Source of the DNA: Planctomycetota bacterium
GTDB lineage: Bacteria; Planctomycetota; MHYJ01; JACQXL01
Length of the DNA stretch: 64,000 nucleotides
Direction: 5' to 3'
Assembly: GCA_016235865.1 (NCBI GenBank)
Contig: JACRIK010000001.1
Span: 124,001 to 188,000 of the forward strand
The position numbers and the translations under genes were made by a program. Positions 6,858 through 63,669 of the stretch are shown here, piece by piece. The stretch's first letter is position 1; each line of letters begins with the position of its first letter. The notes below the pieces were generated by a model. It was not told the origin of the DNA and did no database searches. It saw only the letters and a program-made list of their open reading frames with translations.

Positions 6858-7769
6858 TCAGTAGGAGCATTCAAAATGGGCGCTGGGGGAATACCGGGCC
6901 CGGGATTGTTTGTCCGCGTACATCAGTTTGTCAACCCGGGCGATCAGGGTTTTCATGGTATCATCCGGCTGAGCCATGCTCAGGCCCATGGATAATCCAA
7001 TCCGAACCATATCCGGCCCGAGCTGGACCGGGATTCCCTCCACGGCCCGGCGGATATGCGTTTTTATGTTATGCAGGTCGCTTTCCGATTCGGACGATGA
7101 AATGAGCAGGAATTCATCGCCGCCGAACCGGCTTAAATGGTCGGTCACCCGGGTATTCCGGTAAAGCACCGAGGCCGTTTCCTTAAGCACCTTGTCGCCG
7201 GCTGAATGGCCCCGGGTGTCATTAATATGCTTCAGGTCGTCAACGTCGATAAAGAGCACCCCGAAATTATAGCCGTAACTGCGCAGGGAATTCAGCTTGA
7301 TGCCCAGGTTAATCTCGCCGTACCGGCGGTTGCCCACATTGGTCAGATGGTCCATAAGCGAGAGCCGTTTTAGTTGTTCCATTTTTCTCATATGCTCGAA
7401 ATTAGTGATATTATCCCAAAAGACCTCAGCCGTTCCAACGGTTTGGTTGTTACAATCTTTAAGAGTGCTGGTGTAGGTATAGACGGCAATCGGATGTCCG
7501 TCTTTGCGGAAATAAATGGCCTCCTCCCGGACAGGCAGGTCCGTGGAGATTGCCCGGAAAACAGGATATTGCGCCTTATAACTATTCTGGGGCAGTTCTT
7601 TTATCAGGATATCCCGGGAGTATTTGCCCAGCACCTCCGAATGGGTATAGCCCATCAGCCGTTCCGCGCCCTGGTTCCAATAGGTGATTTTCCCCTCGGG
7701 GTTGGTCAGGTACACGCCCATACAGAAATTATCCACGATAACCTTAAACAGGTCGTTGGTAATAAACAT
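6858..7769 (-). CDS. PAS-GGDEF diguanylate cyclase
   Basis: It makes c-di-GMP from two GTP. An N-terminal PAS domain (about residues 8-125: NFCMGVYLTNPEGKITYWNQGAERLMGYTHSEVLG in pieces, then the PAC segment) precedes a GGDEF domain with SRFGGDEFLLI. The product-inhibition site RVTD (RxxD) lies exactly five residues before GGDEF, so feedback inhibition is expected. No membrane segment is visible, so the protein is cytosolic. A GGAG Shine-Dalgarno precedes the ATG. It is second in a unit with the 55-aa gene at 7825, downstream of a sigma-54-type promoter and a structured leader. The stop abuts the yraN remnant. Confidence 0.93.
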   Translation of the reverse strand: MFITNDLFKVIVDNFCMGVYLTNPEGKITYWNQGAERLMGYTHSEVLGKYSRDILIKELPQNSYKAQYPVFRAISTDLPVREEAIYFRKDGHPIAVYTYTSTLKDCNNQTVGTAEVFWDNITNFEHMRKMEQLKRLSLMDHLTNVGNRRYGEINLGIKLNSLRSYGYNFGVLFIDVDDLKHINDTRGHSAGDKVLKETASVLYRNTRVTDHLSRFGGDEFLLISSSESESDLHNIKTHIRRAVEGIPVQLGPDMVRIGLSMGLSMAQPDDTMKTLIARVDKLMYADKQSRARYSPSAHFECSY

Positions 7770-8323: not shown

Positions 8324-8339
8324 TGCAAATCCTGTGCCA
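8324..8339 (-). promoter_or_regulatory. Sigma-54 (-24/-12) promoter
   Basis: On the minus strand, TGGCAC-AGGAT-TTGCA is a full match to the consensus (TGGCAC, five bases, TTGCA). The start would fall near 8312, leading through the structured leader into the 55-aa gene and the diguanylate cyclase. Confidence 0.8.
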
Positions 8340-8568: not shown

Positions 8569-9915
8569 TCAGAACGGATTCCGGATATGGTTTTGCTGTA
8601 TCTTTTTATGGAGTGTCACGCGGGAGATTCCGAGGAGTTTGGCGGCCTTGGTTTTATTGCCGTTGGTCTTATTTAAGATCTGCTTGATCCGGTCGAATTC
8701 CGACAGCCGGGTGGAATCCCTGAGCCCGAACGGCAGGCCGACCTGGGCGCTGTCAGCCGCCACATTCCGGGACTCCAATATGTTAGCCGGCAAATCCTCG
8801 ACCCTGATGACAGTGCTATCCGGTATGACCAGCATCTGGTTGATAAGATTGGACAGTTCGCGGACATTGCCGGGCCAGTCGTATTTTGCCAGTATCTCCA
8901 GGGCCGCCGGCTCTATTTCCCGGGCCGGCTTGTGCTCCAGGGCGGCGAATTTGCCGATAAAATATCCGCAGAGCGGGTCGATATCATCCCGGTGTTCCCT
9001 CAGCGGGGCCATGTTTAACGGGATGACGCCCAGCCGGTAAAAGAGGTCTTTCCGGAACCGGCCGTCCTTTATCTCGTTCTCCAGTTTCCGGTTGGTGGCG
9101 GAAATAATCCGGATATCTATCTTGATTTTAGCCGTGCTGCGCAGGGGGGTGATTTCCCGGTCCTGGATAATATTGAGCAGTTTGGCCTGGGTCCGCAGGG
9201 ACAGGTTGCTGATTTCATCAAGGAAGATAGTGCCGGTGTTGGCCCGGGTAAACCGGCCGGTGTAGGAATCGACCGCTCCGGTAAACGCCCCCTTATTGTG
9301 GCCGAATAGTTCGCTTTCTATGATTTCCTCGGGCAGGGTGGCGCAGTCGATTTTGACAAAGGGCTTGTCTTTCCGCCGGCCCTGCAGGTGAATGGTTCGG
9401 GCCGCCAAATCCTTCCCGGTCCCGGTCTCGCCGTAAATCAGGACGTTGGCGTCGGAGTCAGCCGATTTCCTGATCAGGTCCAGGGTTTTGCGGATGGCCG
9501 GGGAGTCGCCGATAATCCGTTCGGACTTGAATACCTCGTCGATAACGCCGTTATACCGGCTGATGGATTTATTCAGTATATCCAGTAATTCATCGGCGTC
9601 AAACGGCTTGGTAATGTAGTCGGTCGCTCCGGATTTGATGGCCCGGATGGCGTTCCTGTGATTGCTGTCCGCGGTTAGGATGATTATCGGCGCGTAGATG
9701 AGGTTTTTCTGGAGCCGTTCCAATACCTCCAGCCCGTGCATTGTCGGCAGGGTTAAATCCAGGATAATGCCGCTGAATTGCATCTTGCGGCTCAATTCCA
9801 GGGCAATCGGGCCGTCGTCCACCGCCGAGACCCGGTACCCGGCATGGGTCAATAGCTCAGCGGTGCTGTCCCGCACTATCCGGTCGTCTTCAACCAGCAG
9901 AATATTCTGTTGCAT
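8569..9915 (-). CDS. NtrC-family sigma-54 response regulator
   Basis: This is a DNA-binding activator of sigma-54 RNA polymerase, switched on by phosphorylation. It carries a receiver domain (ILLVEDD; phospho-Asp in IILDLTLPT near residue 55; TKPF Lys), an AAA+ domain with GETGTGKD and the sigma-54 contact loop GAFTGA near residue 210, and a Fis-type HTH at the C-terminus (NKTKAAKLLGISRVTLHKKIQ split over two helices). The 448-aa length is normal. The ATG at 9915 was preferred to a GTG one codon earlier. The histidine kinase gene ends 15 bp upstream, so the two form a two-component pair. A sigma-54 promoter lies 230 bp beyond its stop, a candidate target. Confidence 0.94.
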   Translation of the reverse strand: MQQNILLVEDDRIVRDSTAELLTHAGYRVSAVDDGPIALELSRKMQFSGIILDLTLPTMHGLEVLERLQKNLIYAPIIILTADSNHRNAIRAIKSGATDYITKPFDADELLDILNKSISRYNGVIDEVFKSERIIGDSPAIRKTLDLIRKSADSDANVLIYGETGTGKDLAARTIHLQGRRKDKPFVKIDCATLPEEIIESELFGHNKGAFTGAVDSYTGRFTRANTGTIFLDEISNLSLRTQAKLLNIIQDREITPLRSTAKIKIDIRIISATNRKLENEIKDGRFRKDLFYRLGVIPLNMAPLREHRDDIDPLCGYFIGKFAALEHKPAREIEPAALEILAKYDWPGNVRELSNLINQMLVIPDSTVIRVEDLPANILESRNVAADSAQVGLPFGLRDSTRLSEFDRIKQILNKTNGNKTKAAKLLGISRVTLHKKIQQNHIRNPF

Positions 9916-9930
9916 CACTATGTATTATGG

Positions 9931-23934: not shown

Positions 23935-24645
23935 TTAGTCAGCCACGCGCCAGTTCCTGCCGCCGGGTCCAGCTGTACCAGTTGGATTTACGCTGGGCCA
24001 GTTTAAGCCGCCAGCTGCTGTGGTTAGCCATCTATTGGCTTGTCCACCGGTATCATTGGCATAGATGGTGCCTTCCTGGTTCACGATAAACGAGTTAATT
24101 CCGCTTGTGCCATAGGCATCCGGAGCCGCCATAAAACCAAATCGGCTGTTGTTACAAGATACTAATGCTGCTCCTCCTACTCCGACATTATTCACGTTAT
24201 AAAGATCTACGGCAACTGAACCATTTGTCAACGCCTGGAACCAGAAGCCGGATTTCACGGTGCTAACAATGGCTGTCGGAGTTGCCGATGACCAGTCCTC
24301 CATAAGCGGGCCGGTGGCACCAAACACATCATCAACCACTTCAGCATTGTCGGCCTTGGCCAAATCTATGGGGATAAAGGCCACTTTGGTTGAGCCATCC
24401 GCGCGATACATACGATGCATACAGGAGACATCGCGGGTCCAGTAATCCTTTATGCCATTACCGTCAGCGTCCTGTTGCAGCCAGACCGCTTCCGATGAGG
24501 TTATCAATTTTAGGGCTGCTACCGCAGAATTCTCATTGGCCGACATACGGCCGCTGAGCAGGTTCGGAATCGCGATAGCCGCGATAATCGCGATGATAGC
24601 AATAACTATCATCAGTTCAATCAAGGTAAAACCTTGTTTACGCAT
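23935..24645 (-). CDS. Type IV prepilin-like / major pseudopilin, first of two
   Basis: The protein starts MRKQG/FTLIELMIVIAI: a five-residue leader, the G/F prepilin peptidase site and Glu at +5. The long hydrophobic helix is followed by a globular domain with LQQDADGNGIKDYW, MHRMYRAD and FGFMAAPDAYGTSGINSFIVN, about 60 per cent similar by eye to the neighbour at 23135. AAAGGAG is 6 nt before this ATG, making it the true start; a frame extension to 24708 runs through the leader palindrome. Transcription probably starts at the sigma-54 promoter at 24944, giving a leader of about 270 nt. Pili or a type II secretion pseudopilus are both possible. Confidence 0.92.
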   Translation of the reverse strand: MRKQGFTLIELMIVIAIIAIIAAIAIPNLLSGRMSANENSAVAALKLITSSEAVWLQQDADGNGIKDYWTRDVSCMHRMYRADGSTKVAFIPIDLAKADNAEVVDDVFGATGPLMEDWSSATPTAIVSTVKSGFWFQALTNGSVAVDLYNVNNVGVGGAALVSCNNSRFGFMAAPDAYGTSGINSFIVNQEGTIYANDTGGQANRWLTTAAGGLNWPSVNPTGTAGPGGRNWRVAD

Positions 24646-24661
24646 AGTTTTTACTCCTTTA

Positions 24662-24681
24662 GAGTCAGTAATTACTGACTC
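24662..24681. promoter_or_regulatory. Perfect 20-bp palindrome before the pilin RBS
   Basis: GAGTCAGTAA/TTACTGACTC is a perfect, loopless palindrome five bases upstream of the AAAGGAG of the first prepilin. In RNA it can only form a tight hairpin next to the RBS; in DNA it suits a dimeric regulator. Confidence 0.65.
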
Positions 24682-24684
24682 TTC

Positions 24685-24860
24685 TGGCCCCGAAGTATTC
24701 GGGACCATTGTTTATAATGTTAGTGGTCCCGCCCGTACGGGTCGGGTCCAGCAACAACATAGATATCACTACTCTCTATGCCTTCTATGTCCCGACACCT
24801 TTCGTCGGGATAAGAGATTGTAACGCCCATACGGGCTGACAATCTCTAATAAGTTAGGTT
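24685..24860 (-). ncRNA. Structured 5' leader of the prepilin mRNA
   Basis: The leader contains several strong hairpins in succession: AGAGATTGTCAG/..TTACAATCTCT, TCCCGAC-GAAAGG-TGTCGGGA, and GGACCCG/CGGGACC-type stems. Some arms resemble the genome's dispersed GTCCC/GGGAC palindromes, so part may be repeat insertion. No riboswitch class is recognised. Confidence 0.4.
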
Positions 24861-24944: not shown

Positions 24945-25078
24945 AAACCAGCCGATTTGTCAATTAATAGTGATATTTTTATAAGGTTTTTATTATCATA
25001 TTGATATAGCAATATTATTTTACAGCTTATGGCGGACAGTATAAGGTTAAGCAGTCTCTATGACTAAAATATGGTACA

Positions 25079-25098
25079 AAGTGACAATTTTTGTCACT
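25079..25098. promoter_or_regulatory. Palindromic enhancer (UAS) upstream of the pilin sigma-54 promoter
   Basis: AAGTGACA-ATTTT-TGTCACT is the centre of a palindrome whose midpoint is 145 bp upstream of the -24 box. The same sequence stands at 61023-61042, 147 bp from another sigma-54 promoter. Further GGACA half-sites follow at 25103-25117. Confidence 0.75.
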
Positions 25099-25148
25099 AA
25101 TAGGACAAATTTGGACACCACCTATAATTTAGCAATCTGTCAAGATAT

Positions 25149-27300: not shown

Positions 27301-27370
27301 GAAATTCGTATGTGTCCCCAGATTACGCTTTTTCAATCTTGGCCCCAGAGTGCATACATTCCATTCCTTA

Positions 27371-27700
27371 CATCGTTACTATCCAATCTTTATATCGTCA
27401 GCATCTAACATTTATATCGTTACCACCTAATTTTTACATCGTTACCATCAAACTTCTACATTGTCACCATCCAATTCTTACGGAGTGGCCATCAAACTTC
27501 TACATCTTCACCATCTAACATTTATATCGCTACCATTTAATTTTTACGTCGTTACCATCAAACCTCTACATGGTCACCATCCAATATTTACGGGGTGGCC
27601 ATCAAATCATTAGCTGGTTACTGTCCAATATTTACAGGGTTGCTATCAAATATTTAAATGGTTACCATCTAATTCCTACGGAGGCGCTATTAACCCTAAG
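27371..27700. repeat. Tandem array of fifteen 22-bp units
   Basis: Fifteen consecutive units of exactly 22 bp, with no indel, share the core GTTACCATCNAA followed by an AT-rich TTTA end. Units differ by 2-9 bases, and similar ones recur every fifth unit: the blocks starting at 27415 and 27525 match unit by unit (B, C, D, E), giving a 110-bp higher-order period. The same 22-bp register appears to continue, more diverged, to about 27832, where units acquire GGGTAT as in the array at 5615-6670. Confidence 0.88.
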
Positions 27701-61013: not shown

Positions 61014-61063
61014 TTTGTCAAAAAGTGACAATTTTTGTCACTTTCTGACACTTTTTGTCACTT
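61014..61063. promoter_or_regulatory. Cluster of palindromic enhancer sites (TGACA/TGTCA)
   Basis: Five TGTCA/TGACA half-sites spaced about 10 bp apart. The central palindrome AAGTGACA-ATTTT-TGTCACTT (61023-61043) is the same as at 25079 upstream of the prepilin promoter. A second, TGACACTTTTTGTCA, follows. Midpoint to the -24 box is 147 bp. Confidence 0.75.
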
Positions 61064-61131
61064 CCCACGATGCCCGGAATCCGGCCTGCATGGCCGGATT
61101 CAGAACCTGTCTCCGCTATCCCTTGATTTAT

Positions 61132-61175
61132 AAGGGGTTTAGGGCATCAGTCCGGATTTATTCCGTAAACCCCTT
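61132..61175. promoter_or_regulatory. 10-bp inverted repeat before the sigma-54 promoter
   Basis: AAGGGGTTTA (61132-61141) faces TAAACCCCTT (61166-61175) across 24 bp, ending 4 bp before the -24 box. It could be an IHF-like bend region, a repressor site or a terminator of the preceding run. Confidence 0.5.
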
Positions 61176-61179
61176 GTTT

Positions 61180-61195
61180 TGGCACAGGAATTGCT
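61180..61195 (+). promoter_or_regulatory. Sigma-54 (-24/-12) promoter upstream of the fibre genes
   Basis: TGGCAC-AGGAA-TTGCT is a full consensus match, preceded by TTT. The start would be near 61207. The next clear genes on this strand are at 61803 and 62617, behind about 600 nt of repeats, so either they are its targets or the original gene is gone. Confidence 0.75.
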
Positions 61196-61556
61196 TGTAA
61201 TATCAGTGCCGGGCGGGCCGGGCCTGCCCGGATGAATGGACCCAACTGGATTCCTGCTTTCGCTAACGCGGTCTCAGTAGAGTTCGCAGGAATGACAGAT
61301 GGTGTTAAAATCGGTGCAAGCCCAACCGCACGCCTACTGCGCTTGACACAGCGGACGCGCCGCGACTTACCCCACGATAAGCCCTTGAATAGGGCAGTAT
61401 TCCCGCCAGAGGCGGGTCTAACTCGCTGTAACGAGTAAACTCTAACAGCGAGTAAGAGGGATGGTTTTATGTTCGCGCAAGATTGCAGTTTCAATAGCGC
61501 AAGCCACAAGAGGTATACCGGTCACGTTCCTTAGTTTTCGGGCTGAAACCCGTTGG

Positions 61557-61745
61557 TTTCGGCTCAGGAATCATGAGTTTCGGCTCGGGAATCATGAGTT
61601 TCGGCTTGGGAATCGTGAGTCTCGGCTCGGGAATCGTGAGTTTCGGCTCGGGAATCATGAGTTTCGACTCGGGAATCATGAGTTTCAGCTCGGGAATCAT
61701 GAGTTTCGGCTCGGGAATCATGAGTTTCGGCTCGAGAATCATGGT
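61557..61745. repeat. Tandem array of nine 21-bp units
   Basis: Nine head-to-tail units of TTTCGGCTCGGGAATCATGAG or one- to two-base variants, exactly 21 bp each. Both strands are open through it (heptapeptides RLGNHEF and MIPEPKL), a trivial result of 21 being a multiple of 3. No start signals support coding. Confidence 0.9.
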
Positions 61746-61802: not shown

Positions 61803-62495
61803 ATGAAAATCACTAGTCCATTTGGCAGAATACATCTAAGCGACGCCAAGTTCTATGGCCTGCAGGGTACTTATGTTACTCTGGCTGATGCCAACAAGGT
61901 GCTCTGGGGTCTGCCGCTGGCAGCGGTGGCCGCATTAGTGGCCCGCCGGGCGGAATATGAGCCGCTTTACCTGAAAATCCAGCAACTGAACGTCCGAACC
62001 AGGGCAGACGTGGCCGCGCATCGGGACAAGCGCCGGGTCTATGAAAAGGAGTTGCGGGAATTCCACAATGAGTGGATTGCCAACAACAGCGCCATACCGG
62101 CTGAACAGAAGATGATTCTGGGCGGACGGGAGCGCGACCTGGAGCCGTCACCGGGCGGGCCGATTGACGATGTGCCTTCTGTGAAGGTAGCCGGCGTCGG
62201 CGGCGGCACTATCAAGGTCTGGTGCAAGGTCACCGAGGATAAGACCCTGCCCAGCATGCATCCGGATGCCAATGTGGTGGAATACCGCTACATTTTGCTC
62301 GAGACCGGAGACGTGGCGCCCAGCGACCCGGAGGACTGCCCCAAGGGCGATAGCTCCAGCCGGGCCAGGTTCACCATCAAGGCCGGGGCCAAGAATGCCG
62401 GGAAACGTTTTTACGGATTCTTCAGGTGGGTCAATAACCACCGGCCCAGGCAGGAAGGGGACTGGACCAACGCCATCAGCGTGATTGTCGCTTAG
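61803..62495 (+). CDS. Hypothetical soluble protein with helical start and beta-rich end
   Basis: Not recognised. The 230 aa have a helical N-terminal half (VLWGLPLAAVAALVARRAEYEPLYLKIQQLNVRTRADVAAHRDKRRVYEKELREFHNEW in pieces) and a beta C-terminal half ending in KRFYGFFRWVNNHRPRQEGDWTNAISVIVA, the sort of closing strand found in fibronectin-type or carbohydrate-associated domains. No signal peptide. GTGAGGTTTAT precedes the ATG. It lies 121 bp before the fibre-like gene, same strand, and after the sigma-54 promoter/21-bp array. Confidence 0.7.
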   Translation: MKITSPFGRIHLSDAKFYGLQGTYVTLADANKVLWGLPLAAVAALVARRAEYEPLYLKIQQLNVRTRADVAAHRDKRRVYEKELREFHNEWIANNSAIPAEQKMILGGRERDLEPSPGGPIDDVPSVKVAGVGGGTIKVWCKVTEDKTLPSMHPDANVVEYRYILLETGDVAPSDPEDCPKGDSSSRARFTIKAGAKNAGKRFYGFFRWVNNHRPRQEGDWTNAISVIVA

Positions 62496-62556
62496 AGCCA
62501 GTTAGCGACGCAGGAGCTTTACTGGGTCTTAGTCCCGGCAGTATTTGCCGGGAGTA

Positions 62557-62616: not shown

Positions 62617-63669
62617 ATGTTAAAACCAAGCGAAGTAAAAACCGAGAACATCGCCAATAATGCGGTGACCACATCCAAGATAGAGGATGGGGCAGTGAAC
62701 TCGGCTAAATTACGCGAGGGCGCGGTCAAGGCCGAGCATATCACGGCTAAGGCCGTGGGTCCGAGCGAATTGCAGGACAGAAGCGTGACTACGGCAAAGA
62801 TTGCCAATAGCGCGGTGACCGAAGAGAAAATCGCATCCGGCGCGGTCACGACCGGAAAGATAGGGGAGTTGGCTGTAACCACCTCACGGTTGCAAGACCG
62901 GGGCGTCACGACCGAGAAACTGGCCAGCAACGCCGTGACAACACAGAAGATAGCCAATGGGGCGGTGACTCCGGCTAAACTCTCATTCACACCGCCGTCT
63001 GTGGCCCGGCCGATTACGCCCGCTGTGACGACCGAAGAAATAGCAGTAGGCGCAGTATCGGCTGACCGCCTCGCAGGAAGCGCTGTGACCGCAGAAAAAA
63101 TAGCAGCGAACGCCGTTGAGACGGCCAAGATAAAAGACCAGGCCGTAACCGGGGCGAAAATCAAGGATTACGACATCGGCTATACCCAGATTGCCTCCAA
63201 CAGCATCAATCGGGAAAAGATTATCAATGGCGAAATCCTGACCGAGAAAATCGCTAATGGGGCAGTAACCGCCGAAAAATTAGCCCCGGGCGTGGGCGGC
63301 GGGGACACGCTGACCATGTTCCCAACGCCACAGACCGCGCTGGACCAAGGCGGGATTATTGCCACGACCCAACCGGCCAGCGTTGACCTTTCCACAATTA
63401 TCCCGGTAGGCACCAAAGGCGTCATTGTGTCAATCGCAGTCATCAACCAGAGTTATGCCAACGGCGGGATGATGGCCTATATTTTTAGGCAGTTGGGCGC
63501 GGAGTATGCCTTGCAGGTCATGGCTCCGCCTGCTAACGCTCCGGGGGTATCTAACGGCGGCTCGGTCCTGATGCCGGTGGCAACGGATAGGACACTGTTG
63601 TGGCAGGCATATGTGGCTGGGAATAATTCCACGGAGTTGGTGATTTACATACTGGGGTATGTGATGTGA
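62617..63669 (+). CDS. Fibre-like protein of repeated AVTxxKIxxG decamers
   Basis: Residues 5-230 are built from about 20 copies of a ten- to twelve-residue motif (ENIANNAVTTSKIEDGAVNSAKL, GAVTTGKIGELAVTTSRL, NGAVTAEKLAPG). The spacing fits a beta-helix or trimeric stalk, as in phage tail-fibre and bacterial adhesin shafts. The final roughly 115 residues form a distinct globular head (TIIPVGTKGVIVSIAVINQSYANGG, LLWQAYVAGNNSTELVIYILGYVM). AAAGG before the TTTTTTATG is the RBS; the longer frame starts inside a dispersed repeat. No signal peptide. A function in adhesion or in a phage-like particle is inference. Confidence 0.8.
   Translation: MLKPSEVKTENIANNAVTTSKIEDGAVNSAKLREGAVKAEHITAKAVGPSELQDRSVTTAKIANSAVTEEKIASGAVTTGKIGELAVTTSRLQDRGVTTEKLASNAVTTQKIANGAVTPAKLSFTPPSVARPITPAVTTEEIAVGAVSADRLAGSAVTAEKIAANAVETAKIKDQAVTGAKIKDYDIGYTQIASNSINREKIINGEILTEKIANGAVTAEKLAPGVGGGDTLTMFPTPQTALDQGGIIATTQPASVDLSTIIPVGTKGVIVSIAVINQSYANGGMMAYIFRQLGAEYALQVMAPPANAPGVSNGGSVLMPVATDRTLLWQAYVAGNNSTELVIYILGYVM

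Follow-up and report, generated by a model that had tools for sequence, protein, structure and literature searches.

What does an enhancer of the kind found at type IV pilin genes control when no pilin gene follows it? This question is raised by positions 61014-61195 of the window, by which we mean the whole 64-kb stretch analysed here (C1:124001-188000, from a 2.67-Mb genome in 38 contigs). In the reading that we regard as likely, this is a PilR-type sigma-54 control region answering to an activator encoded at C12:103058-104485, with the pilin gene and probably also the 61803 and 62617 genes as targets. The control region is genuine and belongs to a known type; its novelty lies in the target, the mechanism being already known.

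The site itself is a row of TGTCA/TGACA half-sites of alternating direction at 61016, 61026, 61036, 61046 and 61056 (TGTCA-AAAAG-TGACA-ATTTT-TGTCA-CTTTC-TGACA-CTTTT-TGTCA), all of which lie on one face of the helix, as each is 10 bp from the next. The original prediction had described a single palindrome at 61023; this core (61023-61043) turns out to be part of the row and is followed by a second palindrome at 61043-61063. The run of five half-sites is the sole example within the window, and runs of three were absent from 20,000 shuffles of the surrounding 400 bp. The palindrome pattern, with up to three mismatches allowed, was found three times in the window against 0.13 expected. As predicted, the core is shared with a site at 25079, and the longest block common to both is exactly 21 bp (AAAGTGACAATTTTTGTCACT, starting at 25078 and 61022); AAGTGACAATTTTTGTCACTT at 61023-61043 and AAGTGACAATTTTTGTCACTA at 25079-25099 differ in their last base. 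The 25079 site has four half-sites in all, including extra GACA elements at 25104 and 25114. Each read towards its own promoter, the two near-palindromes are oppositely oriented, with the loop AAAAT at 25079 and ATTTT at 61023. On opposite strands, a strong -24/-12 element points away from the palindrome at each site, and the -24 box lies 136 bp from the edge of the palindrome at 61023 and 134 bp at 25079 (154.5 and 152.5 bp from centre to centre). The 2-bp difference predicted between the two spacings is therefore correct, while the absolute values first given (147 and 145 bp) depend on the points chosen. An Rfam search of the window returned no RNA family.

With respect to the promoter, TGGCACAGGAATTGCT matches the 16-bp sigma-54 consensus, including the GG at -24 and the GC at -12, and its score lies at the 99.9th percentile of the best scores obtained from 260-bp pieces drawn at random from the window. 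Transcription from it would be expected to start near 61207. Genome-wide, 26 sigma-54 promoter sites were found versus 7 for the reversed pattern. The third strict promoter of the window is flanked by genes for a sigma-54 activator (8569-9918) and a PAS-GGDEF protein (6858-7769). Elsewhere in this genome, palindromes resembling GTTACC-N4-GGTAAC (L015, L019, L023, L026, L028, L034) or TGCACAAG-CTTGTGCA (L024 and L025) lie upstream of sigma-54 promoters, which points to several activators, each with its own sites.

Table 1. Coordinates of the features discussed, in window positions
Feature	Position	Strand	Remarks
Third strict sigma-54 promoter of the window, TGGCACAGGATTTGCA	8324-8339	-	Without palindrome
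Type IV prepilin, MRKQGFTLIELMIVIAIIAIIAAIAIPNLL	23935..24708	-	PF07963 N_methyl 2e-9; probable start 24645
Sigma-54 promoter, TGGCATAATAATTGCA	24944-24929	-	-24/-12 match, before the prepilin gene
Enhancer core, first copy	25079..25099	-	Plus GACA half-sites at 25104 and 25114
Upstream activating site, very probably PilR-type	61016..61060	+	Five half-sites in 10-bp steps; match to cross-phylum pilA enhancers
Sigma-54 promoter -24/-12, TGGCACAGGAATTGCT	61180..61195	+	16-bp consensus match
21-bp tandem array, 9 copies	61556..61743	.	Within the putative 5' leader of the 61803 gene
230-aa protein, no known family	61803..62495	+	First likely gene of the transcript
350-aa tail-fibre-like protein	62617..63669	+	AVTTxKI repeats, conserved C-terminal domain; phrog_892 tail fiber protein 8e-44

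The combination of this palindrome with a sigma-54 promoter recurs well outside the window. Searching for the bare palindrome in 149 related genomes led, at each level of relatedness (family, order, class and phylum), to loci in which it lies ahead of a sigma-54 promoter and a prepilin gene. A genome of the same family shares its pilin locus with a Planctomycetota record (L065/L213 and L107), which places the window in that phylum. When 84,980 species genomes were scanned for the combined pattern (GTGACA-N5-TGTCAC, a gap of 115-145 bp, then TGGCA-N6-TTGC), 71 places in 70 stretches were found, as opposed to the ~3.6 given by a uniform-base estimate. A GFTLIEL-type prepilin lies no more than 700 nt from the promoter in 52 of these 71 places, and these 52 belong to Gammaproteobacteria, Desulfobacterota, Acidobacteria, Planctomycetota, Hydrogenedentota, Myxococcales and others; the remaining 19 places lack a prepilin at this distance, and three of them are at contig ends. 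Within the window's own phylum (392 genomes), 13 instances of the combined pattern were found and five more with shorter gaps, and its reversed form gave no match at all. Among the promoters in this phylum that lie outside the window genome, 12 of 14 precede a prepilin.

The internal geometry of these loci is similarly regular. Gaps at the pilin loci cluster at 115-121, 125-131 and 138-143 bp, that is, one or two helical turns apart, and the clusters span phyla. A Rayleigh test for a 10.5-bp period gives p ~1e-11, a value that is too generous since the loci are related by descent and hence not independent. The loop AAAAT/ATTTT seen in the window is the most frequent one (18 of the 52 pilin loci), and extra half-sites at +22 and +32, like those at 61047/61056, are also present in other genomes.

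Taken together, the two prepilin-linked fractions place the 61023 site in a class that, as judged by where its members occur, is the upstream activating site characteristic of pilA promoters, and positions 61014-61195 are very probably a PilR-type enhancer. The original view of the element as an enhancer of sigma-54 promoters is supported, in that the same enhancer-promoter pair stands before prepilins in many phyla; the claim that prepilins are among the targets is likewise upheld, as an N_methyl prepilin (24708-23935) lies directly downstream of the 25079 copy, the arrangement of a pilA promoter. More generally, GTGACA-N5-TGTCAC, helically phased to a sigma-54 promoter, provides a sharp sequence definition of a pilin enhancer in many phyla, Planctomycetota included, and this definition can be used for listing the pilus regulons of uncultured bacteria.

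In terms of the second target, no prepilin motif was found in the 700 nt after the 61180-61195 promoter, and N_methyl matches were absent from the 61803 and 62545 proteins, the latter being the longest ORF of the 62617 gene (TTG start at 62545). With no prepilin directly downstream, the 61023 copy is not classed as a pilA promoter. We nonetheless lean towards the view that its control region serves the 61803-63669 genes. The 230-aa protein has three paralogues in the genome; of 24 related genomes, three contain relatives, and all three are from the same order. Nearly all relatives with enough upstream sequence are preceded directly by a 21-bp array whose sequence differs each time (L200, L201, L185, L223, L224, L226-L230, L232). 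A single-sequence structure model of this protein had a mean pLDDT of 38 and was unusable. Upstream of the 21-bp arrays of the C14 and C24 paralogues, at -514 and about -370, respectively, there are near-perfect TTGACA-16-TATAAT promoters. In the window copy, the best sigma-70 score is 9.5 versus a median of 9.3, meaning that none rises above background, and a sigma-54 promoter lies at -623. This difference suggests that in the window copy the usual promoter has been swapped for a PilR/sigma-54 one, to be read alongside the finding that other cassettes, too, are without a clear sigma-70 promoter. Tentatively, then, the PilR/sigma-54 enhancer could have been taken over for a chromosomal fibre cassette (21-bp array, 230-aa protein and fibre) alongside the type IV pilin, a view to which we give slightly less than even weight. 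The probable use of such a control region by uncultivated phages, described below, would be a parallel case.

A different and unlikely account is that the control region, real as it is, does not serve the 61803 and 62617 genes, being instead a relic of a lost pilin gene or the source of a short or non-coding RNA, while the fibre cassette moved in with its own promoter. The leader before 61803 would fit such a history, as it comprises ~600 nt that lack a conserved reading frame and are full of dispersed repeats, and the cassettes do appear to be mobile or rearranging, with about 17 fibre loci in the genome whose C-termini are near-identical. Such an enhancer is missing from the other cassettes examined as well, and the 61803 relatives in other genomes all lack it. 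What this account leaves unexplained is that both promoter and enhancer are intact and of full consensus, where drift would be visible, and that no promoter other than this one rises above background in the window copy, even though near-perfect ones occupy the corresponding place in two paralogues. Control of the 61803-63669 genes from 61023 hence remains our preferred reading. We also considered the fibre cassettes as a general PilR regulon and rejected this, since no other examined cassette has the enhancer and sigma-54 promoter.

The cassettes show further variation. Another class carries 22-bp arrays in place of the 21-bp ones; examples of 22-bp arrays are found at 27360-27673, L035:7364-7599, L036:6963-7267, L189:10603-10861 and L196:8852-9161, with a G-rich/C-rich motif (GGGGGGTAGGGTATCCCCCC) on one flank, and their density is ~1 per 18 kb even in stretches that were not picked for arrays. 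Short pieces of fibre C-terminus, at C37:6538, C19:4942, C27:125840 and C3:241777, closely follow full fibre genes. Some of these pieces contain stop codons, and the pattern is as if alternative tips were exchangeable.

As for the protein that binds the enhancer, the genome contains one rpoN gene (C33:41850-42332; PF04552, E 1e-50) and 17 full sigma-54 activators, a count from which two additional weak matches were left out. In a tree with activators from the pilA loci of other species, C12:103058-104485 was the only one of the 17 to group with pilA-adjacent PilRs. It pairs with an activator from a phylum mate, encoded beside a pilin gene (support 95/94), which identifies it by tree as a PilR orthologue, with moderate rather than full support (94/91) for the wider fork that unites it with all PilRs. 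Its domains are a receiver, a sigma-54 interaction domain and a Fis-type HTH, and its recognition helix (LRYKLKK) resembles that of PilR (FRQLRYRIKK). We infer that it is the best candidate for a PilR-like activator of this enhancer, the type of activator having gone unnamed in the original prediction. Given a site of the pilA type, rpoN and one activator that groups with PilR, the 25079 site is an ordinary pilin promoter.

It is improbable that another of the 17 activators binds the enhancer and that the PilR-like one is not involved. The C12 gene does stand alone, with no histidine kinase gene adjoining it in the neighbourhood examined, and the different palindromes at other sigma-54 promoters, such as GTTACC-N4-GGTAAC, speak for activators with other specificities. 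Against this, sites of this class accompany pilin promoters in different phyla, in several cases with a PilR-like gene within the 8-kb locus, and none of the 16 other activators falls in the PilR clade.

The palindrome also has copies that do not conform. Four near-exact copies are present genome-wide (25079, 61023, C12:89278 and C27:129316), and the last two are lone palindromes without extra half-sites, each at the G-rich edge of a 22-bp tandem array. Within 300 bp to the left or right of these two copies there is no -24/-12 element; the best scores in their vicinity are 3.4 and -2.1, compared with a background median of 1.9. The original claim that the palindrome by itself defines a regulon is consequently too strong, as two of the four genomic copies lack a sigma-54 promoter. 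Occurrence without such promoters had been named in advance as grounds for regarding the palindrome as just a repeat, and to this extent it is what we see; the enhancer reading survives these orphan copies owing to the loci found in other genomes. That the palindrome is a mere dispersed repeat or terminator with a chance sigma-54 match nearby is very improbable, for despite the two copies beside 22-bp arrays, the combination is conserved before pilin genes in many phyla with no match to its reversed form, the stem is A+T-rich with no terminator predicted at the site, and the arrangement of half-sites in a row is in keeping with a protein-bound array. A transcription terminator at 61023 was rejected, none being called there, as was the palindrome as a fixed part of a minisatellite, since most arrays have no palindrome nearby. 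In a genome of the same order (G008), a copy of the palindrome (GTGACAAAAATTGTCAC, L064:1502) lies within a CRISPR spacer.

Building from the PilR-type reading, the following mechanism can be proposed. A PilR-like activator, for which C12:103058-104485 is the candidate, would bind the TGTCA/TGACA row on one DNA face; the intervening DNA of ~136 bp would loop, and the looped activator would open the RpoN-RNA polymerase complex held at TGGCACAGGAATTGCT. At 25079/24944, the same activator would turn on the major-pilin-like gene (24708-23935), and the 61023 copy would give rise to a long leader transcript running through the 21-bp array into the 61803 gene and on to the 62617 gene, whose products would then be made together with the pilin. 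Binding by the C12 protein, transcription and the genes driven by the second promoter are all predicted here from the DNA. As a pilus-type switch appears again before a fibre-like gene, two distinct structures of the cell surface may answer to a single regulator. If the enhancer has indeed been taken over, a second surface or injection structure would be made only in piliated cells. A real second target would also link a multi-copy, uncharacterised fibre-like family to pilus control and provide a first handle on the role of these cassettes.

Several features of this system have precedents. The upstream activating sites of the NtrC/NifA class are likewise inverted repeats 100-200 bp upstream of a -24/-12 element with helical phasing, and the half-site TGTCA differs from those of NtrC or NifA. 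Earlier footprint work is said to have given a TGTC half-site consensus for PilR. The PilS-PilR/RpoN control of pilA in Pseudomonas aeruginosa, Geobacter sulfurreducens, Myxococcus xanthus and Dichelobacter nodosus shares with the window a sigma-54 promoter, upstream TGTC half-sites, an NtrC-type activator of the PilR clade and, at the 25079 copy, a pilin gene as target. It differs in that the second target here is a 230-aa protein and a tail-fibre-like protein, and in that the candidate activator gene has no neighbouring PilS. The site in the window is also a clean GTGACA-N5-TGTCAC palindrome set in a 10-bp series, whereas the PilR sites of P. aeruginosa have the hallmarks TGT-N11-AGA with nearby GTCT elements (PMC6058289). 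According to that article, which cites its ref. 25, predicted PilR sites together with sigma-54 promoters were reported at 54 loci in Geobacter, many of them at genes other than pilA. The 62617 protein shares AVTTxKI-type repeats with phage tail-fibre repeat proteins (PHROG 892, 28766, 21412), but unlike these it belongs to chromosomal two-gene cassettes in ~17 copies with a 21- or 22-bp array upstream. The fibre C-terminal domain has no close relative in the viral contigs searched, in which no relative of the 230-aa protein was found either.

The combined enhancer and sigma-54 pattern itself does occur in viral contigs, namely in 11 (L234-L244; for example, L244:2860-3041, L240:8930-9102 and L239:8856-9045), where a uniform-base estimate is well under a few. 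None of these 11 patterns precedes a prepilin, and a comparison of one of the phage loci with GenBank phage records gave no match. Rows of palindromes lie ahead of the promoter in L239, L240, L241 and L244, and terminase large-subunit genes are present within a few kb in at least three contigs (L234, L236 and L239). The promoter in L239 is followed by a gene with a match to a phage polymerase/reverse transcriptase family. These observations suggest that some uncultivated phages use control of the PilR/sigma-54 type.
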